Positions 6,076-64,000 of a stretch of 64,000 nt of DNA are shown one piece after another. A model generated the notes under the pieces. The model was not told the origin of the DNA. It saw nothing but the letters and a program-made list of their open reading frames with translations, and searched no databases. The DNA lies in NCBI RefSeq assembly GCF_012911975.1, contig NZ_SMDQ01000019.1:22436-86435 (forward strand). Reading direction: 5' to 3'. The stretch comes from Nodosilinea sp. P-1105. GTDB taxonomy: Bacteria; Cyanobacteriota; Cyanobacteriia; Phormidesmidales; Phormidesmidaceae. The first letter of the stretch is position 1; every line of letters starts with the position of its first letter. The position numbers and the translations under genes were made by a program.

Positions 6076-6726
6076 TTAGGTACCAAAGGTGCGATCGCCA
6101 GCATCCCCCAAACCCGGCACGATGAATCCGTTGTCGTTCACCACCTCGTCAATGGCGGCTGCAAAAATGGTGACACTGGGATAGGTGGCCGCTAACTTTT
6201 GTAGGGCGGGGGGGGAGGTGACGATGGAAATGATCCGCACGGCGGCGGGGTCTATCCCCCGCTGGGTGAGCTCAGCCATCATCGCCATAATCGTACCGCC
6301 CGTGGCCAGCATCGGCTCGCTAATGATTACCCGAGTCCGGGGATCCAACTGGTCGGGTAGTTTGTTCAAGTAGCAGCTGGCCTCCAGGGTGGTTTCATTG
6401 CGCACAAACCCCATGTGGTAGACCGAGGCGAGGGGCACCAAGGCTTGAATACCTGGCATCAGGGCTAGACCGGCTCGTAAAATCGGTATCACCAGGGTGG
6501 GCACATCGGGATTCACAAAGGTGGCAGGAGCCGGTCCCAGGGGCGTATTCACCGTGGTCTCCATCGTAGGCAGCCACTCCCGAGTGGCCTCGTAGGCCAG
6601 CCAGCGCCCCAGTTCCTCCATGGCAGAACGAAACAGGGGATCAGGGGTGTCAGCATCGCGAGCTACCCCCAGCCAGTGCTGAATCAACGGATGGGGCGGC
6701 ACGAAAATACGCAGTTGTGGAGCCAT
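6076..6726 (-). CDS. upp: Uracil phosphoribosyltransferase, first copy
   Basis: PRPP loop VIISEPMLATGGTIMA and C-terminal [17 protein letters not shown]; start set at MAPQLRIFVPPHPLIQHW. Confidence 0.88.
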   Translation of the reverse strand: MAPQLRIFVPPHPLIQHWLGVARDADTPDPLFRSAMEELGRWLAYEATREWLPTMETTVNTPLGPAPATFVNPDVPTLVIPILRAGLALMPGIQALVPLASVYHMGFVRNETTLEASCYLNKLPDQLDPRTRVIISEPMLATGGTIMAMMAELTQRGIDPAAVRIISIVTSPPALQKLAATYPSVTIFAAAIDEVVNDNGFIVPGLGDAGDRTFGT

Positions 6727-8385: not shown

Positions 8386-8813
8386 GGGAGTCGGTAACTG
8401 GCCACCCGCACCACCAAGTCACCACGATGGGGATCGTGGTTAAACACAAAGCTGCCCTCTTTTTGTTCGTGCCCTGACAAAAAATCAATTTGCTGTTCGC
8501 CCGTTTCTTCACCTTGACCGGGAATGTCCAGTTCGGCAATCACCTGCACCCCATTGGCGATGCGCCCGCCGGTATTGGTAATCACAAAGGGTACATAGTA
8601 GCGACCATCGGTAATCCGAATCGACTCAGCGACAACGACATTAAAGGCAGGGGGGCGATCTTGGTTCACCTGCCAGTCATAGATAATCACCCCCACGAGG
8701 GTTAATAAGATCACAGTCGCCCCGATAAACGTCACCCACTCGGCCATAGACCGTTGGGGTTGCCCGGTGGTAGAAGCCTGGGATGAATTGGGGGGAGGAT
8801 TGTCGATGCCCAT
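8382..8813 (-). CDS. TIGR02588-like conserved hypothetical (single TM)
   Basis: TM segment plus ADGRYYVPF/VQVIAELDI-like region; adjacent to a TIGR02587-like gene. Confidence 0.7.
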   Translation of the reverse strand: MGIDNPPPNSSQASTTGQPQRSMAEWVTFIGATVILLTLVGVIIYDWQVNQDRPPAFNVVVAESIRITDGRYYVPFVITNTGGRIANGVQVIAELDIPGQGEETGEQQIDFLSGHEQKEGSFVFNHDPHRGDLVVRVASYRLP

Positions 8814-9682
8814 TAGATTAGGATACGCCCTGCCGCTCCGCCAATGGAGGCCGGTAGGCCTAAGACTAAAATATCACTGAGCCACTCTTGCCAGGGGTCG
8901 CTGGGGCTGAGCTGCTGAAACATTACCAGCATAATGGCTGAGACCGCCAGGGCTACCACATAAGCGACCAGGGTTTCCGTGGGCGGGCTGAGCAAAAGCC
9001 CTCGTTGCAGCCGTTCGGTGCGGTCGGTAAACCCAGAGGCAAACACAATCGTATAAGACAGCACTAACGATGCCGCCATCACCAGCAACAACCACAGGGG
9101 CGGCAGCGACGCGGCCACCAGGGGTACCTCTTCGGTGGGGGCAATGCTCAAGCCAATCAGCACCGCTCCAATCAGGGTGGCATCTAGGTCCACCAGGGTG
9201 TCGCGCACCTTCGCCAGGGTCGGGGAGGTCAGCCGTCGAGATAGGGGGGCCGTAGTGCGGCGATCGCGACTTCGCTTAGTTTGAAAGGTCGATCGGGCCA
9301 ACGCCACACCCAGCGAAAAGGGTACAGACTCAAACACCAGTTTGCCCGTGGCCTCGGGCAGCGGCGTAGCCAGGGTAATCCGCCGTAGCAAGAGTAGGGC
9401 CAGGGCCGCACACAGAACACCAATCCCCACAGCTTCAATCGTTTCCAGAATCGCTTCCAGGGGGCGGAGGGCCAGGGTTTGCCGAAACCCCTCCACCTGG
9501 GTGAGCAACCAAACCACCAGCAGGGTCAACCCCAGCACCACCAATAACCATCGGGGATCCGTTGCCGACCCGATCGCCCAGACTTCCACGGTATACAGCA
9601 GCGGAATGCCGAATAAGAAGCCGCCAGCAATGCCCCGCAGGATAGCTTGTAATTCGGTGCGCCAGGGAGTGGGGTGAGGCAT
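8813..9682 (-). CDS. TIGR02587-like integral membrane protein (ORF continues to 9922 through repeats)
   Basis: MPHPTPWRTELQAILRGIAGGFLFGIPLLYTVEVW followed by multiple TM helices. Confidence 0.75.
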   Translation of the reverse strand: MPHPTPWRTELQAILRGIAGGFLFGIPLLYTVEVWAIGSATDPRWLLVVLGLTLLVVWLLTQVEGFRQTLALRPLEAILETIEAVGIGVLCAALALLLLRRITLATPLPEATGKLVFESVPFSLGVALARSTFQTKRSRDRRTTAPLSRRLTSPTLAKVRDTLVDLDATLIGAVLIGLSIAPTEEVPLVAASLPPLWLLLVMAASLVLSYTIVFASGFTDRTERLQRGLLLSPPTETLVAYVVALAVSAIMLVMFQQLSPSDPWQEWLSDILVLGLPASIGGAAGRILI

Positions 9683-9690
9683 GGGGAGGT

Positions 9691-9738
9691 GGGGGGATGG
9701 GGGGATGGGGGGATGGGGGGATGGGGGGATGGGGGGAT
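9691..9738. repeat. Tandem octamer array (GGGGGGAT)x6
   Basis: Six uninterrupted GGGGGGAT units. Confidence 0.95.
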
Positions 9739-9740
9739 GC

Positions 9741-9769
9741 GTAGGGGCGGACCTGGGTGTCCGCCCTGG
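9741..9769. repeat. Dispersed palindromic repeat GTAGGGGCGGACCTGGGTGTCCGCCCTGG (copy A)
   Basis: Near-identical at 9830-9858 and 44880-44908; partial at 9961-9982; divergent at 12990-13018. Confidence 0.9.
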
Positions 9770-9829
9770 CGAGGAATGGGAAGGTGGGAGAGGTGGGGAA
9801 GGCAGGGGGATGAGGGGGCGGGTAGATGG

Positions 9830-9858
9830 GTAGGGGCGGACCTGGGTGTCCGCCCTGG
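9830..9858. repeat. Dispersed palindromic repeat GTAGGGGCGGACC...GTCCGCCCTGG (copy B)
   Basis: Identical to copy A. Confidence 0.9.
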
Positions 9859-10120
9859 GGAGGGATGGGGTGGTGGGGAAATTTTGGATTTTGGATTTTG
9901 GATTCTTCGCTTTGCTACGCACGGGCTACGCCCTACGTTCTTCTTTTTTCGTTCTTCAGATACGACCTGGGTGTCCGCCCTGGTGGAGAATGGTGCGAGG
10001 GGGTGGATGGGTGGATAGAGTTTGAAATCTTATAAAAACCTCAGCATCTACAGATTTCCACAAAACATTCGTTAGCGTAAACAAGACAACAAATTGCGGT
10101 AAATGCCAAGGACATTTGTT

Positions 10121-37311: not shown

Positions 37312-37766
37312 ACGTCTCGCGCTACATGGTCAGGAACAAGATGGTCGATAGGGCCCCCAAATCGGGCAATTTCTTTCACCAGACTACTACTGAGAAAGCT
37401 ATATTCTGTGGAGGTGGATAGAAACAGAGTCTCGATGTCATCGGCAAGGGTTTTATTAGTATGAGCCATTTGTAGCTCTTTTTCGAAGTCTGACAGGACC
37501 CGTAGCCCCCTCAGCAAAATTTGGGCCTGGTGGGTGTGGGCATAGGTAATGGTGAGGCCATCGTAGTAGTCAACATCCACGTTGCTCAGGTGATTGACGG
37601 ACAGACGAATTTGCTCCATCCGCTCGGGAATAGAAAAGAGGGGAGCTTTGTTAGGATTGCTAGAGATCAGGACGATGACCCGTTCAAACAGTCGACTGCC
37701 ACGGGTAATGATATCCAGGTGTCCTAGGGTGATGGGATCAAAGCTGCCGGGGTAGATCGCAATCAA
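37203..37766 (-). CDS. coaD: Phosphopantetheine adenylyltransferase
   Basis: [64 protein letters not shown]. Confidence 0.97.
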
Positions 37767-37868
37767 AACGGCTGTCTCGGTAGCAATGAGGCGATTATAG
37801 CGGACTTAGCTCAGGTCCTCATGGGGGGTCCCATGAGGACTTGGCGACCTTAGATCAACTCATTGACC

Positions 37869-38009
37869 AGGTACTCAGGCCATCTGATCATGGCGGGTGC
37901 TATGCACTGGGTTCACGGTATGCGGTTTAAGGCGAGTTGTAGACCCTGTACCGTAAACCTTGCACCGCAGACCCTGTTAACCCGTCAGGTCTGACTTAAC
38001 AGACTATTA
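37869..38009. mobile_element. Degenerate MITE-like copy related to 23552-23672
   Basis: GTACTCAGGCCATCTGATCATGGCGGGT ... ACCCGTCAGGTCTGACTTAACAGACTATTA aligns with ends of the 23552 element. Confidence 0.45.
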
Positions 38010-38496
38010 GTCGCTTGCAATAAACGCGATCGCAGCGGGGAGTTTCGACCCCGGTGGCGGGCCGATAGCCTTGGGCCTCGTACAGGCACACCGCCTCTGT
38101 TAAAACTGACGCGGTTTCCAGCCAAATCTGCTGAAACCCCCGAGCTTGAATCGCAGCTTCCAGAGTGGCGAGTAAGTAGCGCCCTAATCCCTGCCCCCGG
38201 GCCTGGGGATACAGGTACATTTTACGAATTTCCACCGCCTGAGGAGCCCGGTTAATCGGGTAATAGCCAGCGGTACCGACCAGATCGCCATGGGCCTCTA
38301 CCACCCAAAAGTCACCGCCGGTCTGCCAGTAATAGGTTTCTACGTCCACGGCGTCGCGATCGCTGCCAGTGGGTTCACAGGTGAGGCCGTATTCCGCCAG
38401 CACCGTAGCAATTAATCTAATCGCCGCGTCGCGATCGCCGGGCTGCCAGCGGCGAATGGTGTATTGGCGGTAGGTGTCGTGGTGGTCGGTGGGCAT
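37996..38496 (-). CDS. GNAT family N-acetyltransferase (ORF continues to 38580 through repeats)
   Basis: QYTIRRWQPGDRDAAIRLI...IRKMYLYPQARGQGLGRYLLATLEAAIQARGFQQIWLET. Confidence 0.9.
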   Translation of the reverse strand: MPTDHHDTYRQYTIRRWQPGDRDAAIRLIATVLAEYGLTCEPTGSDRDAVDVETYYWQTGGDFWVVEAHGDLVGTAGYYPINRAPQAVEIRKMYLYPQARGQGLGRYLLATLEAAIQARGFQQIWLETASVLTEAVCLYEAQGYRPATGVETPRCDRVYCKRLIVC

Positions 38497-38640
38497 GGGG
38501 AGGTGGGGAGGTGGGGAAGGTGGGGAAGAATTTTGAATTTTGAATTTTGAATTTTGGATTGTTGAAATCGTAGGGTGCATTAGCGGTCGAGGTCTGGGCT
38601 TTGGTGGTCAACCTGGGGCGGCAATGCACCGGTCAGGAAG
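38497..38640. repeat. Composite repeat cassette: octamers + TTTTGAA heptamers + GTAGGGTGCATTAGCGGTC...GCAATGCACC hairpin
   Basis: Same module order at 44633-44800. Confidence 0.85.
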
Positions 38641-38650
38641 GGGAATGGAA

Positions 38651-39253
38651 CTAACTGTGGATGCGGGGTTCGGGGTGGAGGTGGGCGAGGATGTCGCTTT
38701 CGACTTGGGCTAGTTGGCCCAGGCGTTCATCCACGTGGTGGCGAGGAAAACGGTTGGTGGCTAGCACCCAGTAAGCCCCATAGTGACGGGCATCAGAGGC
38801 CATGAGGCTGTGGTAAAACTGGGCGAGGGCGCGATCGGGGCAGTGCTGGGCCAATAGTCCTAGGCGTTCATGACTGCGAGCCTCTATCAGGGCTGAGATC
38901 AACAGCAAATCGAGCAGTCGGTGGGGTTCCTGGGGGCGGACCTGCTGGCGTAGCTGAGCCCCATAGGGAGGTGGTGACAGCGGCCTCAGGGGTATGCCTC
39001 GCCGTTCTAGCCATTGATTCACCTGGGCCAAGTGAGTTAACTCCTCTTGGGCGATCGGGATCAGCGCTGTGACTAGAGCGCCATCAGCAGGATAGCGGTT
39101 GATCAGTCCCATGGCCACTCCGGCCGCCTTCCGCTCACACTGGGCGTGATCGAGCAAGATCACATCCAAATGAGCCATGGCCTGATCGAGCCAGGCAGAG
39201 CCAGTAGGGGTCTGGAGAAATTTGATCGTGGCAGGGGGAGACGCAGTAGCCAT
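38651..39253 (-). CDS. miaE: tRNA-(ms2io6A)-hydroxylase
   Basis: LDVILLDHAQCERKAAGVAMGLINRYP...EELTHLAQVNQWLERRGIPL...LLISALIEARSHERLGLLA. Confidence 0.92.
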   Translation of the reverse strand: MATASPPATIKFLQTPTGSAWLDQAMAHLDVILLDHAQCERKAAGVAMGLINRYPADGALVTALIPIAQEELTHLAQVNQWLERRGIPLRPLSPPPYGAQLRQQVRPQEPHRLLDLLLISALIEARSHERLGLLAQHCPDRALAQFYHSLMASDARHYGAYWVLATNRFPRHHVDERLGQLAQVESDILAHLHPEPRIHS

Positions 39254-39418
39254 AACAACAGGCAGAAGCCATAACAACAGATTGAGTCAACGGGGAACGG
39301 GACCACGGCCTCGGCAGTCCAAGAGATGCAAGTTACTGTGTCACAAAGGACTAGAATTAAGTCACTTGCTTGGCCGCCGCCAATCCACCCTCTGATTTTA
39401 AGCGCTGAGATCAAACGA

Positions 39419-40126
39419 ATGGTGACATCTAACGGCTCCACCGAATCTACCGAATCCACCGAAACTAACGGGTCCCATGAGGCCAGCCCAGCCCCTGAGC
39501 CAGTGGTGATCAGTTGCAGCTACTTGCTCCACGTCCATGCAGATGCCTGGCAGCGGGCTACGGTTCATCCCTTTTTGACGGGCTGCAAGGAGGGGTCTAT
39601 TCTGCCAGCCCAGTTCAATACCTGGTTGGTGCAAGACTATTTGTTTGTTAAAGACTTTACCCGCATGCTGGGTCAAATTTTAGGGTTTGCCCCGGATCAT
39701 CATTTGGATACTCTGCTAGGTGGCCTGGTTGCCCTCAAGGATGAGTTGCTGTGGTTTCAAGCAAAAGCAGCTGAGCGGGGGCTAAACCTGGATGCTCCCC
39801 GGCAGTCGATCTGCCAGCAATATTGCGACTTTATGGCCGGTTTGGTGGTTGAACCTTACCCTGTGCAAGCGACGGCCCTGTGGGCGATTGAGTATGCCTA
39901 CAATCAGGGGTGGCAACTCCCTGGCCCCATGGCAGAACCCTATACCGAGTTTGCCGATCGCTGGGGCAACCCTGGCTTTACCGATTATGTCAATGTCTTA
40001 GCCGCCCAGGCGGATGAGGTGCTGAAAGTGGCTAGTCCCCATACCCAAACCCTGGCCGCAACGACCTTTTTGCGCGTGGCTCGGTTGGAAGAAAGCTTCT
40101 GGCAAATGGCTTTCAATGCCGCCTAG
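39419..40126 (+). CDS. TenA/heme-oxygenase-like family protein
   Basis: ATVHPFLTGCKEGSILPAQFNTWLVQDYLFVKDFTRMLGQILGFAP; YNQGWQLPGPMAEPYTEFADRWGNPGF. Confidence 0.85.
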   Translation: MVTSNGSTESTESTETNGSHEASPAPEPVVISCSYLLHVHADAWQRATVHPFLTGCKEGSILPAQFNTWLVQDYLFVKDFTRMLGQILGFAPDHHLDTLLGGLVALKDELLWFQAKAAERGLNLDAPRQSICQQYCDFMAGLVVEPYPVQATALWAIEYAYNQGWQLPGPMAEPYTEFADRWGNPGFTDYVNVLAAQADEVLKVASPHTQTLAATTFLRVARLEESFWQMAFNAA

Positions 40127-40279
40127 ACCGTCAGTACAGATCCCTGGGTTCTGGCTGGAGAAGCTCCAAAATTCGTGGTCGATAAGGTCAATACTTCAGG
40201 GAGCTTGACCTACTGTACCAGTGCTCTAGCTTCTGACCCGCCCTTCGACAAAATAGTGAAGTGTGCAGAGAGCAATCAC

Positions 40280-40309
40280 AAAAAAGGCTCAGCTGTCCGA
40301 GGCTGAGCC
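40280..40309 (-). terminator. Orphan terminator-like hairpin on minus strand
   Basis: GGCTCAGC/GCTGAGCC 8-bp stem followed by T6 on minus strand. Confidence 0.65.
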
Positions 40310-40450
40310 CATGGGTAAAGGATGGATTAAACGGGTTAATTTAAGGGTTTGATTTAACGGCTTGATTTATCGGTTGTGTAACCTAGTACCGTCAATGATA
40401 ACAATGGGATCCGCGAACTGAGATATCCTGCTGGATTTAGTTAGCGAATC

Positions 40451-40478
40451 TTGACATTGTCGATACTGGCTTTATCGT
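40451..40478 (+). promoter_or_regulatory. Putative sigma70-type promoter TTGACA-N16-TATCGT
   Basis: TTGACA at 40451-40456 and TATCGT at 40473-40478. Confidence 0.35.
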
Positions 40479-40491
40479 AAGCTAGTTTTTC

Positions 40492-40815
40492 GTGAGCTTC
40501 GGTTACAACCGCTACCTGAGATCGGCCTTAGGCTCAGCCAAAGCGATGTTGGTATGCTGGGGGCAAGAAGCCTCTGGGAGGAGCAAGTCTGACCGTTATG
40601 GTTCACAGCAACTATCTCCGCCCCGCCTCCGAACCCTGGGGCTGGGATTAGGAATCTGGCAGGGGGAGTACCAGGACATTCAGGGGGCTTGGCTGCGGTG
40701 GTATGGCGGCGATCGCCACTGGATAGCCACCCCAGAGGACCAGGCCACCCAGGAGCGGCAGCGGGCCGAACGGTTAGCGACTAAGCTCCGGGAGTTGGGG
40801 GTTGAGCCTGAGTAA
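40492..40815 (+). pseudogene. Remnant of a Uma2/DUF820-family endonuclease-like protein (C-terminal tail only)
   Basis: RTLGLGLGIWQGEYQDIQGAWLRWYGGDRHWIATPEDQATQERQRAERLATKLRELGVEPE is the typical Uma2 tail; the catalytic core is absent. Confidence 0.65.
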
Positions 40816-40903
40816 TCAGTAGCTCCATGTGCGCGAGCGGTGGGTTACGGCGGAGCGATGATTTAGCGCTGTGGCAGAGGAGATGGGGGCCGCCTCACCC
40901 ACC

Positions 40904-42361
40904 CTACTGGTGGTCTAAGGCGGCATTGTAGGTGGCTTCATTCGTCTTGACCGACTTGGCCAAATCCACGATTGGCTGGGGATAGTCCACCCCGATCTGC
41001 ACCTGAAAGCGTTTTTGCTCCACCGGCAGCAGTTGCCAGGGGGTATGCACCTTGGCGGCGGGCACCTGCCGTAGTTCCGGCAGCCAGTGCTTGACGTAGG
41101 TGCCGTCGGGGTCGTAGTCCTTGGCCTGTTTGGGGATGTTGAAATAGCGGAACCCCCGGGCGTCGTTGCCCACCCCAGCGGTATAGTTCCAGTTGCCGTA
41201 GTTGCTGCACACGTCGTAATCAACCAGCTGCGACTCAAACCACTCGGCCCCCATGCGCCAGTCGATACCAAGGTTTTTGGTCAGAAAACTGGCTACGTTC
41301 TGTCGCCCTCGGTTGGACATAAACCCAGTCTGGGCCAGTTCCCGCATGTTGGCATCCACCAGGGGAAACCCCGTGCGGCCCTGGCGCCAGGCGTCGAACC
41401 TGGGCCAGTCTTGCTTCCAGGCGATGTTCAGCCCCCGCAGGCCAGAGGGATAGAATACGCGATCGCCGTGTTGAGCGCAGACAAAGCGAAAATAGTCCCG
41501 CCACAGGAGCTCAAACACCAGCCAGTAGGTAGAGTCGTTCTGCACTCGCTCCTGTTCGTAGTGCTGCACTGTCTCGTAGACCTGGCGGGGGGAGAGGCAG
41601 CCCAGGGCCAGCCAGGCAGACAGTTTTGAGGAATAATTAGCCCCCACCATGCCATTGCGGGTTTGCTTATAGGTCTTGAGGCAGTCCGCCTCCCACACAT
41701 AGTGATGCAGGCGCTGGAGTCCAGCGGTTTCACCCCCCTCAAACAAAAGGACAGCCCGCTGATCAGCGACAGGTTCCGACAATCCCCAGTCCGCTAGCTG
41801 GGGTAAGGGGCCTGGGTCGATGGTAGGCAGCGGCGGCAACTGGGACGGGGCCGGTAGAGGGGCAGCCACCTGGCTGTGACGCTCCACCTGTTTACGGAAT
41901 TGGGTGAAGACTGCCGGTAGCTGGGCGATCGCAAAGGGCAAATCCTCGGGATGGTAAAGGGTGGCCCCCCAGTACCGGCGAGTTTGGCAGCCCAGGTTAG
42001 CCAGGGCCCTGGTCAGGGCTTGCTCCACCGCCACTTCCTCCTGGGTGACTTCCTGATGCCAGTACACGGCTTCAATGCCCAGGTCCTGCACCAGCTGGGG
42101 AATAACGGTTTCAGGATGCCCCGTCCGCACCACCAAATCGCTACCCAAGGCCTGGAACGACCGGCGCAAGTCCGCGACGCTGTCTAGCAAAAATCGGGCT
42201 CGGTAGGCCCCGGTTTTGGGGAAGCCAAAGCTGGTATGACCAAACTGGCGGGGGTCGAAGCAGTAGAGACCGATGATCGGTTGCCCAGGGGCGATCGCCT
42301 CCACTAGCGGCTGGTGATCGTGCAAGCGCAGATCGTTACGGAACCAAATTAAACAGGTCAT
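40904..42361 (-). CDS. DASH-family cryptochrome / photolyase
   Basis: MTCLIWFRNDLRLHDHQPLVEA; GLLWRDYFRF-like ELLWRDYFRFVCAQHG; MSNRGRQNVASFLTKNLGIDWRMGAEWFESQLVDYDVCSNYGNWNYTAGVGNDARGFRYFN. Confidence 0.93.
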   Translation of the reverse strand: MTCLIWFRNDLRLHDHQPLVEAIAPGQPIIGLYCFDPRQFGHTSFGFPKTGAYRARFLLDSVADLRRSFQALGSDLVVRTGHPETVIPQLVQDLGIEAVYWHQEVTQEEVAVEQALTRALANLGCQTRRYWGATLYHPEDLPFAIAQLPAVFTQFRKQVERHSQVAAPLPAPSQLPPLPTIDPGPLPQLADWGLSEPVADQRAVLLFEGGETAGLQRLHHYVWEADCLKTYKQTRNGMVGANYSSKLSAWLALGCLSPRQVYETVQHYEQERVQNDSTYWLVFELLWRDYFRFVCAQHGDRVFYPSGLRGLNIAWKQDWPRFDAWRQGRTGFPLVDANMRELAQTGFMSNRGRQNVASFLTKNLGIDWRMGAEWFESQLVDYDVCSNYGNWNYTAGVGNDARGFRYFNIPKQAKDYDPDGTYVKHWLPELRQVPAAKVHTPWQLLPVEQKRFQVQIGVDYPQPIVDLAKSVKTNEATYNAALDHQ

Positions 42362-42540
42362 GGCAAAATCCCAGGGTGGCCCAACCGGCCAAAAACAGGG
42401 GGTCGAGCAGCGAACGATGGATGAACTATGTATTAAGTATTGTAAACAGGTTATTCCCTGGCCCTGGCCCCCTTGCCCTGGCCATGGCCAGACCCGACAG
42501 ATGACGGTAGCCTAACGATAGCGACCAAGGCAAAAATTCC

Positions 42541-43983
42541 ATGGTTTTTCAAACCCCTGACTGGGTAAAACACGCCGTTTTCTATCAAATCTTTCCCGAT
42601 CGGTTTGCCCGTACCCAGCGATCCGTCACTGACCCTGCAATGGCCGTGGCCCTAGAGGCCTGGGAGTCCCCTCCTACCCTGTTTGGCTATAAAGGGGGGG
42701 ATCTATGGGGCATTGCAGAACAGCTGGACTATCTGGTCGACCTGGGCATCACCGCTATCTACTTGACGCCGATTTTTCAGTCAACGAGTAATCACCGCTA
42801 CCATACCCATGACTACTACCAGGTAGATCCGCTGTTGGGGGGGAATCAGGCCTTTGTCGACTTTCTAGCGGCCGCCCATCGCAAAAATCTGCGGGTGGTG
42901 CTCGATGGCGTGTTTAACCACTGTGGTCGGGGGTTTTTCTTTTTCAATGACATCTTAGAGAACGGTCCCCACTCCCCCTGGCTAGACTGGTTCAAGGTCA
43001 AAAACTGGCCCCTGTCCGCCTACGATGGCAATCTACCCGCCAACTACCAGGGCTGGGTCAATAACCGGGCACTGCCGGAGTTTAACCACGACAACCCAGC
43101 GGTGCGGGAATACATTATGCAGATTGGTGAACATTGGATCCGCCAGGGCATTGATGGCTGGCGACTGGATGTGCCCTATGAAGTGGAGACCGCTGGGTTT
43201 TGGCAGGAATTTCGCGATCGGATTAAAGCCCTCAACCCCGAGGCTTATATTGTGGGGGAAATTTGGACCGAGGCCAGCCCATGGCTGGATGGCACCCAGT
43301 TTGACGGAGTGATGAACTACCCGTTTACAGGAGCCACGATTGCCTTTGCCGCAGGCGATCGCGTCCGCATGGACCTGGTCGAAATTCCTCACTATTTCCC
43401 TTACCCAGCCCTGGACGCCCCAGGATATGCCCAAAAAATTCAGCGGCTGCTGGGTCTTTATCCTTGGGAGGCGCAACTGGCCCAATTGAATCTGCTGTCT
43501 AGCCATGATGTGGCCCGCCTCTATTCGGTGGTGGGCGACGATGAGGCGAGTGTGGTGCTAGCCACCCTGCTGCTGTTCACCTTCCCTGGGGCTCCCAGCA
43601 TTTATTACGGGGATGAGGTGGGCCTGCCAGGAGAACTGGACCCCGACTGCCGCCGTACCTTTCCCCCTGAAAGTCAGTGGAACCAGAGAATTGTCCAGCT
43701 TTACCGGCAGCTGATTAATCTCCGACACCGATATCCTGCCCTACGCACTGGCACCTATGGGGTGGTCTATGCCGAGGGCGAGACCTACGTGTTCACCCGT
43801 AGCCTGGACAGCGATCGCTTGGCCGTAGCCCTGAACACCGGTACAGCCCCCATCGGGTTAACCACCGATACCCTATTGTCCCCAGGGGCGACCCCCGACC
43901 CAGTGTTTGCCTACGGTGGGGCAAGCTGGGATCCCCACAAGCTGCACCTGCCCCCCCGATCTGGCTTGATGGCTACGCTGTAG
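42541..43983 (+). CDS. GH13 alpha-amylase/neopullulanase-like glycosidase
   Basis: HAVFYQIFPDRFAR; GWRLDVPYEVE; IVGEIWTEA; LLSSHDVARL; GAPSIYYGDEVG. Confidence 0.94.
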   Translation: MVFQTPDWVKHAVFYQIFPDRFARTQRSVTDPAMAVALEAWESPPTLFGYKGGDLWGIAEQLDYLVDLGITAIYLTPIFQSTSNHRYHTHDYYQVDPLLGGNQAFVDFLAAAHRKNLRVVLDGVFNHCGRGFFFFNDILENGPHSPWLDWFKVKNWPLSAYDGNLPANYQGWVNNRALPEFNHDNPAVREYIMQIGEHWIRQGIDGWRLDVPYEVETAGFWQEFRDRIKALNPEAYIVGEIWTEASPWLDGTQFDGVMNYPFTGATIAFAAGDRVRMDLVEIPHYFPYPALDAPGYAQKIQRLLGLYPWEAQLAQLNLLSSHDVARLYSVVGDDEASVVLATLLLFTFPGAPSIYYGDEVGLPGELDPDCRRTFPPESQWNQRIVQLYRQLINLRHRYPALRTGTYGVVYAEGETYVFTRSLDSDRLAVALNTGTAPIGLTTDTLLSPGATPDPVFAYGGASWDPHKLHLPPRSGLMATL

Positions 43984-43996
43984 CTGTAATGTCAAT

Positions 43997-44632
43997 TTAT
44001 TTGGTGCCAAACAGGCGATCGCCCGCATCTCCCAGCCCAGGCAGAATATACCCCTGGTGATTCAACCTGTCGTCGATGGCCGCCGTGTACAGGGGCACAT
44101 CGGGGTGCTCTTGGTGAAAGTGGGCAATGCCTTCGGGGGCCGCCAACAGACAGAGAAACCGTAGCGATCGCGGCTGGGCCTGCTTCAACGGGTACAACGC
44201 CGCCACTGCGGTATTACCAGTGGCGATCATCGGGTCCACCACCAACACATCGCGATCGGCCAGATTCTCTGGCACCTTAAAAAAATACTCAATCACCCGC
44301 AGGGTTTGGGGATCGCGGTACAGACCAATGTGCCCCACCCGGGCCGACGGGATCAGCTCTAAGATGCCGTCCAAAATCCCCTGCCCGGCTCGCATGATCG
44401 ACACCACCACCAACTTTTTCTCCGGTGCTAGTACCGGCGCCTCCATCGCCGCCAACGGCGTCTGTATAGTCTCCCGCTTCAAGGGCAAGTCCCGCGTCAC
44501 CTCGTAGGCCATCAACAGGCTGATTTCCTTCAGCAGAGTACGAAACTTGGCCGTGCTGGTCTCAGCCCGGCGCATCAGGGTGAGCTTGTGTTGAATCAGG
44601 GGGTGGTTGATCAGGTGGAGGTTGTTGGGCAT
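43997..44632 (-). CDS. upp: Uracil phosphoribosyltransferase, second copy (ORF continues to 44743 through repeats)
   Basis: [66 protein letters not shown]. Confidence 0.96.
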
Positions 44633-44800
44633 GGGGTGGGGGAGGTGGGGAGGTGGGGGAGGTAGGGGAGGTGGGGAAATTTTGAATTTTGAATTTTGAA
44701 TTTTGAATTTTGGATTTTGGATTGTTGAAATCGTAGGGTGCATTAGCGGTCGGGGTCTGGACCTTGGTGATCAACCTGAAGCCGCAATGCACCGGTGGGG
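44633..44800. repeat. Composite repeat cassette: GGGGAGGT-type octamers, TTTTGAA heptamers, GTAGGGTGCATTAGCGGTC...GCAATGCACC
   Basis: Shared module order with 38497-38640. Confidence 0.85.
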
Positions 44801-44879
44801 GGGGATTTTGGACCCTTCCTTTGCTACGCACGGGCTACGCCCTACGTTTTTCTGTTTTCGTTTTTCGTTCTTCAGATAC

Positions 44880-44908
44880 GTAGGGGCGGACCTGTGTGTC
44901 TGCCCTGG
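44880..44908. repeat. Dispersed palindromic repeat GTAGGGGCGGACC...TGCCCTGG (copy D)
   Basis: Two differences from copy A. Confidence 0.85.
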
Positions 44909-45354
44909 CGGGGGAATCGGGTAGGTGGGGAGGGTTGCTCAAATACCGCCGTAACCCACGGGTGGGGCTCGTGTCCATCTTACCTGTGGTGCTCCTGATT
45001 GGTGCCTATGCTGCCGCCAATGGCGGCCCGTCGGAGACCACAGCGGACAATGACAGGGAATCAGCATCAAGCGCGGACGAGCCGGAAGTACGGCACGAAG
45101 AGGAACTCCTGAGTACCATGACCTCCCTGGGCTTAAGCTTTTTTACAGCGGCACCTACGGCTTAGTCTTGACGCTATAGTTAAGGTTAATAGGTTTCCCC
45201 GACTATAGCGATGGCCATTGCGCTGAGGACATTGACCCTGACCACAGCTAGAAACTGGGATGGCGCAACGGTGTGTATGGCCCCGCTTCAAGTGTATCGG
45301 TCATGTCCTAACTGTTCTGGCGATGGCTACAGTTATCCGTTGGAGATAAAGCCA

Positions 45355-45693
45355 ATGATGCAAGCTAGGACCAACGAAGGTCGTTTTCTAGGATTTTTAG
45401 GTTTTCTAGGATTTTTGGGCTTTTTAGGATTTTTGGGCAGCTCAGCTCACGCCCAACTAGCCAACTTGGCCTACCTTTCCCTGCTATCTCTGGGATCACT
45501 GTTGACCCTGTGGCCCATCAAACCATCTAGAGTCAAGTTGAATGTGCACCCAGCGAAAAAAGGCTACCTAGGATTTTTAGGTTGCCTGGGGTTTCTAGGT
45601 TTTTTAGGGACCACCACCCCCGCGTTGGCCGGGCTAGCGTGCCTGGCCATCTTGTCCGCCCTGGCTCTGGATAACCGGCGATCACCGACTTAG
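45355..45693 (+). CDS. Two-module (LGF)n glycine-zipper-like hydrophobic protein, 112 aa
   Basis: MMQARTNEGRFLGFLGFLGFLGFLGFLGSSAHAQLANLAYLSLLSLGSLLTL...KKGYLGFLGCLGFLGFLGTTTPALAGLACLAILSALAL; GGAG about 11 nt upstream of ATG. Confidence 0.65.
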   Translation: MMQARTNEGRFLGFLGFLGFLGFLGFLGSSAHAQLANLAYLSLLSLGSLLTLWPIKPSRVKLNVHPAKKGYLGFLGCLGFLGFLGTTTPALAGLACLAILSALALDNRRSPT

Positions 45694-45748
45694 GGTAGAC
45701 CAGGCCGAGGGGACGAGGGGCAAGCGGCTTGCCACTAACAGGCCACCC

Positions 45749-46747
45749 TTAACCATGACGCCCTTGGTGCCACTGCCAGGCGTGGGCCAGGATGGTCTCA
45801 ATGTCGCTGTATTGAGGGTCCCAACCAAGGATGCTGCGGGCGCGATCGCTGCCGCCCACCAGCGCTGGTGGATCGCCGGGGCGGCGGTTATCTTCCACCA
45901 CGGGAATGGGTTTGCCGGTCACCCGGGTGGCGGCGTCAATCACCTGGCGCACCGAGAAGCCATTGCCGTTACCCAGGTTAAAAATGGTGCTGGTTCCCCC
46001 CTGCAGCAGATACTCCAGCCCCAGAATATGGGCATCGGCCAGGTCGCACACGTGGATGTAGTCGCGCACACAGGTGCCATCGGCAGTGGGGTAGTCGGTG
46101 CCATAAATATAGATGGCATCCCGTTGGCCCAGGGCCGTTTGCAGAATCAGTGGAATCAGGTGAGTTTCGGGGTTGTGGTCTTCCCCCAAAAGACCGTCCG
46201 GGTGGGCACCAGCGGCATTAAAGTAGCGGAAGCACACCGATCGCAGATCGTAGGCCTTGTCGTAGTCGGTCAAAATCCGCTCCACCATCAGTTTAGTGGC
46301 CCCGTAGGGGTTAATCGGGGCCTGGGGATGGGTTTCGGGAATCGGCAGCTCCTGGGGCACCCCATAGGTGGCACAGGTGGAGGAAAACACAAAGCTTTTC
46401 ACCCCAGCGTTCACCATGGCATCCAGCAGGGTGAGGGTGCCGACGACGTTATTTTCGTAGTATTTGCTGGGGTTAGTCACCGACTCGCCCACATAGGCGT
46501 AAGCCGAAAAGTGCATCACCGCATCGATCTGGTGTTGGCTGAACACCGACGTTAACAGGGCTTTATCCAGGGTGCTGCCCACAATCAGCTCGGTTTTCAG
46601 CACTTGTTCCACCAAATCCTGATGGCCATACACCAGGTTGTCCAGGATGATCACCCGGTAACCCGCCTGCTGCAAGGCCCAAACGGCGTGGCTGCCAATG
46701 TACCCGGCTCCACCAGTAACCAGAATTGTTTTTGTAGGGTTTGCCAT
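45749..46747 (-). CDS. galE: UDP-glucose 4-epimerase
   Basis: ILVTGGAGYIGSHAVWALQQAGYRVIILDNL; VFSSTCATYGVPQELPIPETHPQAPINPYGATKLMVERIL. Confidence 0.97.
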   Translation of the reverse strand: MANPTKTILVTGGAGYIGSHAVWALQQAGYRVIILDNLVYGHQDLVEQVLKTELIVGSTLDKALLTSVFSQHQIDAVMHFSAYAYVGESVTNPSKYYENNVVGTLTLLDAMVNAGVKSFVFSSTCATYGVPQELPIPETHPQAPINPYGATKLMVERILTDYDKAYDLRSVCFRYFNAAGAHPDGLLGEDHNPETHLIPLILQTALGQRDAIYIYGTDYPTADGTCVRDYIHVCDLADAHILGLEYLLQGGTSTIFNLGNGNGFSVRQVIDAATRVTGKPIPVVEDNRRPGDPPALVGGSDRARSILGWDPQYSDIETILAHAWQWHQGRHG

Positions 46748-63918: not shown

Positions 63919-64000
63919 CCCCCTCTCCCCCACTCCATCACTCCCCCATCTCCCCCTCTCCCCCTCTCCCCCTCTCCCCCACTCCATCACTCCCCCATCT
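63919..64000. repeat. C/T-rich octamer-type tandem array running off the window edge
   Basis: CCCCCTCTCCCCCACTCCATCACTCCCCCATCT repeated. Confidence 0.85.

Follow-up and report, generated by a model that had tools for sequence, protein, structure and literature searches.

Here, we describe a C-rich, G-free tandem array that directly abuts the start codon of the uracil phosphoribosyltransferase (UPRTase, upp) gene in Nodosilinea sp. P-1105, within a 64,000-nucleotide stretch of DNA that was analysed as a whole (the window). The last letters of the array before the ATG are CACCTCCCCCACCCC, with zero intervening bases (Table 1; the TRF call for this array is 44635-44676). On the minus strand (44630-44800), the upp leader is composed, in this order, of a palindrome, the spacer CTACGATTTCAACAATCC, a heptamer array, the C-rich array and the ATG. 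Similar junctions occur at a GNAT acetyltransferase gene and a DUF2391 gene of the window. The flush junction claimed by an earlier reading made from the letters alone (the sequence-only reading) is thereby confirmed, and the three genes are indeed unrelated, as their products fall into the Pfam families PF14681, PF00583 and PF09622. Their ATGs are credible as starts because the UPRTase domain starts at residue 8 and the DUF2391 domain at residue 14, and because GNAT congeners share the start. The upp start position is kept in congeners within ±1 codon.

Table 1. Features at the three array-bearing gene starts of the window.
Feature	Position	Strand	Remarks
Gene for a DUF2391 membrane protein, following site 1	8813-9682	minus	PF09622, E 1.1e-93, residues 14-289 of 289
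Site 1 array, (CCCCCCAT)n ending CCCCACCTCCCC, flush with the DUF2391 gene ATG	9683-9739	minus	
Gene for a GNAT acetyltransferase, following site 2	37996-38496	minus	PF00583, E 6e-17
Site 2 composite of hairpin, heptamers and C-array, abutting the GNAT ATG (38494-38496)	38497-38633	minus	congeners: empty site
UPRTase (upp) gene, 211 aa	43997-44632	minus	PF14681, E 2.5e-74, residues 8-210
upp start codon ATG	44630-44632	minus	directly abutted by the array; CCC follows
Site 3 C-rich, G-free tandem array, 8-9-nt units of CCCCACCT type, flush with ATG	44633-44676	minus	
Heptamer array (AAAATTC/AAAATCC)n, 7.3 copies	44678-44729	minus	TRF unit AATTTTG / CAAAATT
Imperfect palindrome GGTGCATTGCGG...CCGCTAATGCACC, predicted hairpin	44737-44793	minus	dispersed copies elsewhere in the genome

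The sequence-only reading treated the three sites as one cassette. This holds for sites 2 and 3, which have in common a composite of ~140-168 bp (85% identical) consisting of hairpin, heptamers and C-array, but not for site 1, where the array is of a different kind and carries only a lone terminal CCCCACCTCCCC. The 171-nt upp leader has a predicted minimum free energy of -26.1 (z -4.3), and the predicted folding is almost confined to the palindrome, leaving the arrays unpaired. A sigma-70 promoter and an intrinsic terminator were sought in 44600-45300 and neither was found.

The gene had also been labelled a second upp copy, which is right in that another UPRT-like gene, 40% identical, sits at ~6079-6699; both types are present in most congeners. 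By the upp gene, the closest named relatives are deposited as Phormidium tenue FACHB-1052, Shackletoniella antarctica and Tildeniella torsiva, all of which we infer to belong to the GTDB genus Nodosilinea. An ORF at 45211-45693 contains imperfect 9/18-nt repeats, TTTCTAGGATTTTTGGGC (45385-45438), that encode a Leu-Gly-Phe-rich repeat peptide. Further C-rich arrays of the CCCCCACT type lie at 63919-63997 and 9690-10000 of the window together with an interspersed element, CAGGGCGGACACCCAGGTCCGCCC, and recur at many repeat loci.

Dispersal of the repeats in the genome

The motif CCCCACCTCCCC is present in seven copies in the window versus 0.05 in shuffles. Its amplification is lineage-specific: the 6.0-Mb genome (195 contigs) holds 221 exact copies versus 13 for the reversed control, while 58 were counted in the closest relative (G015), 52 in the congener G009 and 1-24 in other congeners; the number for this genome is probably an underestimate, as its many arrays at contig ends indicate that the repeats break short-read assembly. 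C-arrays or composites were seen at the ends of contigs C4, C16, C21, C24, C25, C36, C40, C112, C115, C133, C137 and C171. The hairpin part of the composite has ~30 copies in the genome. In most composite copies the order of hairpin, heptamers and C-array is constant and the end of the C-array variable. The copies are widespread in intergenic DNA, where they mostly end away from start codons, and 37 of 47 sampled arrays were intergenic. Like other short tandemly repeated repetitive (STRR) sequences, they consist of short units arranged head to tail, in the heptamer array as well as in the C-array (unit of 8-9 nt, not 7), and are dispersed and mostly intergenic.

Three hairpin copies near contig ends (C167:28017, C111:125 and C140:43055) are followed by the same flank, TGTATGTAAGGGTTGGCCCAAAATAGACC, which suggests a further interspersed repeat or an insertion element.

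Position and orientation relative to start codons

The placement of arrays was evaluated in stretches around blind CCCCACCTCCCC matches (the first 100 listed places) and in 400 kb of fixed stretches. Array regions were chosen regardless of starts, genes were called by a codon-usage model, and arrays were located afterwards. Abutment meant that a start codon read on the C-rich strand lay no more than 3 nt from the array end; it was scored for intergenic arrays with both neighbours known and compared with random placement and orientation inside the same gaps (20,000 trials).

Exact abutment and sense orientation occur well above chance in two species. With the window excluded, 9 of 27 intergenic arrays of this genome abut a sense start versus 0.40 expected (maximum 5 in 20,000 trials), and an independent repeat of the test in G009 yielded 7 of 25 versus 1.2, one double-counted array having been removed. 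The counts from the two species bear out the enrichment at start codons that had been suspected from the window, with 16 of 52 arrays flush with a sense start in the pooled data versus 1.6 expected; starts in these counts were called by a simple gene finder based on codon usage and were checked against families or relatives for some genes only. Extending array ends to the next G may gain a few nucleotides towards the ATG and slightly inflate the excess, which stays large even if the expectation is doubled. More broadly, 15 of the 27 arrays of this genome lie ≤50 nt upstream of a gene in sense versus 3.5 expected.

The shared orientation noted at the three sites is likewise non-random. Between tandem genes the pooled arrays are oriented 35:8 (p 4e-5), and none of the 52 is flush with an antisense start (1.05 expected). 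At the array end in question, stop codons are not in excess (2 versus 2.6 expected, pooled). The effect thus concerns sense start codons specifically and does not extend to gene edges generally, and an attraction to any gene boundary was rejected. General G-free tracts were also rejected as the cause, since tracts not picked by the repeat motif gave only a weak excess in this genome (2 of 19 versus 0.47) and none in the congener G016 (0 of 19).

Reading frames and leaders among relatives

The sequence-only reading further proposed that the sites share a reading frame and that sites 2 and 3 encode nearly the same extended peptide. The shared frame did not withstand the comparison of further copies. 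Heptamer arrays are distributed 4/3/6 over phases 0/1/2 relative to the ATG, and the hairpins have phases 1, 1, 0 and 2. Upstream of flush-array starts, all three frames are open for at least 22 codons, often far more, because G-free repeats hold no TAG or TGA and their units hardly ever give TAA. The extended peptide is consequently an artefact of repeats that lack stops in any frame and carries no information. The ATGCC junction, also regarded as part of the cassette, fared better: it is found in 12 of 17 flush-array genes versus 11 of 201 ordinary genes. This enrichment is explained only in part, and part of it, as judged from the relatives, is ancestral. ATGCC is inherited in GNAT and upp, congeners without this array having it too; for genes read from the N-terminus as ScpB-like and DUF554-like, the junction and the array appear to have changed together.

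Site 2 offers a comparison with an empty site. Of 24 congener loci that could be measured, 11 have 9 nt between the upstream stop and the GNAT ATG (two loci belong to pieces of the same genome), and the start there often already reads ATGCC; here the gap is 154 nt, almost wholly composite. Orthologues of other flush-array genes in G015 are 83-93% identical over their first 200 nt and mostly retain the ATG and a flush C-rich tract, with differing unit types, lengths and flanks; in G009, the orthologues usually lack an array. Sequence comparison shows near-complete replacement of the leader between the two closest relatives, with a C-rich tract still seated flush at the same ATG. Across the genus, upp leaders are mostly C-rich and G-poor before the ATG, with differing units, and outside the genus such tracts are mostly absent. 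The start codons are thus old and the arrays young and turning over, and what recurs is a C-rich, G-free tract in sense orientation, flush with the start. An array is not required, because some array-less orthologues have G-containing leaders. The suggestion that CACCTCC tracts mask Shine-Dalgarno (SD) sequences finds no support, as the motif is not kept and congeners have C-rich tracts without it at the same upp start. Anti-SD mimicry by CACCTCC as a kept feature was rejected for the same reason, namely other C-rich units at the upp start of congeners.

In this clade, start codons are typically preceded by CC or CT (C at -2, 0.64; C/T at -1, 0.82), and an SD-like motif precedes only ~27% of ordinary genes. 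The predicted folding of the region from -60 to +20 is -1.25 kcal/mol for flush-array genes, -14.64 kcal/mol for ordinary genes and -23.28 kcal/mol for flush-array leaders that were reversed.

Known repeats and possible roles of the arrays

To our knowledge, intergenic tandem repeats of cyanobacteria have long been without a function. Cyanobacteria carry interspersed palindromes such as GGTGCATT/AATGCACC, to which the hairpin part of the composite may be akin; a search of 37500-46000 against Rfam gave zero matches at gathering score and hence no family name. In Nostoc PCC 7120, we take the G-rich heptamer GGGGA(C/T)T to match STRR1, CCCCA(A/G)T. A search of the literature on STRR sequences gave two close precedents (Rehm et al. 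2015, PMC4692102; MacGregor 2015, PMC4679880). The former describes GGGGA(C/T)T in Nostoc PCC 7120 and GGGAATC in Xanthomonas, whose largest upstream fraction lies 0-50 bp from an ORF, the G-rich strand being the non-coding one, which also concentrate near stop codons on the coding strand, and which accompany mixed metabolic genes; their function was not identified and phase variation was judged unlikely (PMC4692102). The arrays described here are likewise dispersed, mostly intergenic and C/G-strand-asymmetric, have variable unit numbers and extensive length variation between relatives, adjoin mixed metabolic genes, and show the same 0-50 bp preference and strand choice (PMC4692102). They differ in their unit (GGGGAGGT and relatives, 8-9 nt), in being joined to AATTC heptamers and a palindrome, and in an abutment to the ATG that was measured here and is start-specific, with no excess at stop codons. 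By eye, the G-run pattern of the repeat would be compatible with a G-quadruplex.

MacGregor 2015 (PMC4679880) describes TAACTGA direct repeats directly upstream of starts in marine Beggiatoaceae and a few cyanobacteria, including Cyanothece 8801/8802, and suggests translational regulation via S1, Csp or Csr. The TAACTGA repeats resemble the present arrays in being mostly forward and in lying a few nucleotides from starts of functionally unrelated genes, over the ribosome-binding place; they differ in their unit, the array here being C-rich and G-free, and no palindrome composite was seen for them in the passages considered. Repeats of a similar kind are therefore already known from the vicinity of gene starts, and the exact seating on the ATG is a new detail. 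The present arrays are set apart from these precedents by their units, the exact abutment measured in two species, the palindrome composite and the empty site.

We regard it as reasonably probable that the arrays are lineage-amplified cyanobacterial short tandem repeats that were seated by C-tract microhomology, and selected for orientation, at existing CC-ATG starts, where they act as unstructured leaders. C-rich repeats would seed, or recombine by template switching, at starts whose CC/CT-ATG(-CC) context is microhomologous to the repeat end. Only the C-rich sense orientation would be retained, the reverse placing GGAGGTGGGG, which is Shine-Dalgarno-like and possibly quadruplex-forming, in the leader; the strand bias may thus be due to reversed leaders that carry this motif and would fold strongly. 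A retained array would then provide an unstructured G-free landing stretch for SD-less initiation, probably with ribosomal protein S1. The arrays would be tolerated or mildly favoured as leaders, rather than act as a switch, and probably give the genes an unfolded stretch on which ribosomes land.

An alternative to which we assign a lesser, though real, chance is that neutral dynamics suffice, slippage-prone C-rich repeats arising at a CC-ATG-CC seed and accumulating up to the coding boundary with expression unaffected. The many intergenic copies away from starts, the unrelated genes, the lineage-specific copy numbers, the fast turnover between this genome and G015 and the resemblance of the start context to the repeat unit are all in its favour. 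However, the biased orientation and the absence of antisense abutment stay unexplained unless the reverse orientation is selected against, and the whole composite at site 2, where many congeners have a 9-nt gap, is not the product of simple local slippage. It is improbable that the arrays are regulatory elements that co-regulate a set of genes, either through a protein bound to them (S1, Csp-type or another RNA-binding protein) or through quadruplexes of the template strand. Such a role would agree with the placement, which is that of the Nostoc G4 repeats (PMC4692102) and of the TAACTGA repeats, S1, Csp or Csr having been proposed to bind the latter (PMC4679880). It would also agree with the C-rich tracts that most of the genus has at the same upp start, although the units differ. 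Yet the genes are functionally mixed (UPRTase, GNAT and DUF2391 by Pfam, others as read from N-termini), the unit sequence is not conserved between relatives, and many orthologues have no array.

The phase-variable or frame-switching tuner, or mobile start-codon cassette, put forward by the sequence-only reading is very improbable. Tandem repeats can alter their length, and sites 2 and 3 have a composite of up to 168 bp in common, but the array precedes a conserved start codon and is not part of the reading frame, so that unit changes leave the frame unshifted; phases are mixed, all frames are open, and the adjoining genes are functionally mixed. Most composite copies are not at starts, and array-less relatives have the ATG (plus, for GNAT and upp, the CC after it), which likewise led us to reject a start codon that belongs to a mobile element or MITE. 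Frame switching and start-codon transfer are thus largely refuted.

Returning to the reading of the arrays as unstructured leaders, it is tempting, though unlikely, to go further and propose that dispersed composites deliver ready-made unstructured G-free leaders precisely to starts and thus form a natural leader-replacement system. If true, repeat amplification would, lineage by lineage, rewire how translation starts in dozens of unrelated genes. The empty-site comparisons provide natural pairs with and without the array for expression tests, and these arrays, seated exactly, strict in their choice of strand and replaced between close relatives, make a testable case for repeats that become, or are selected as, translation leaders.
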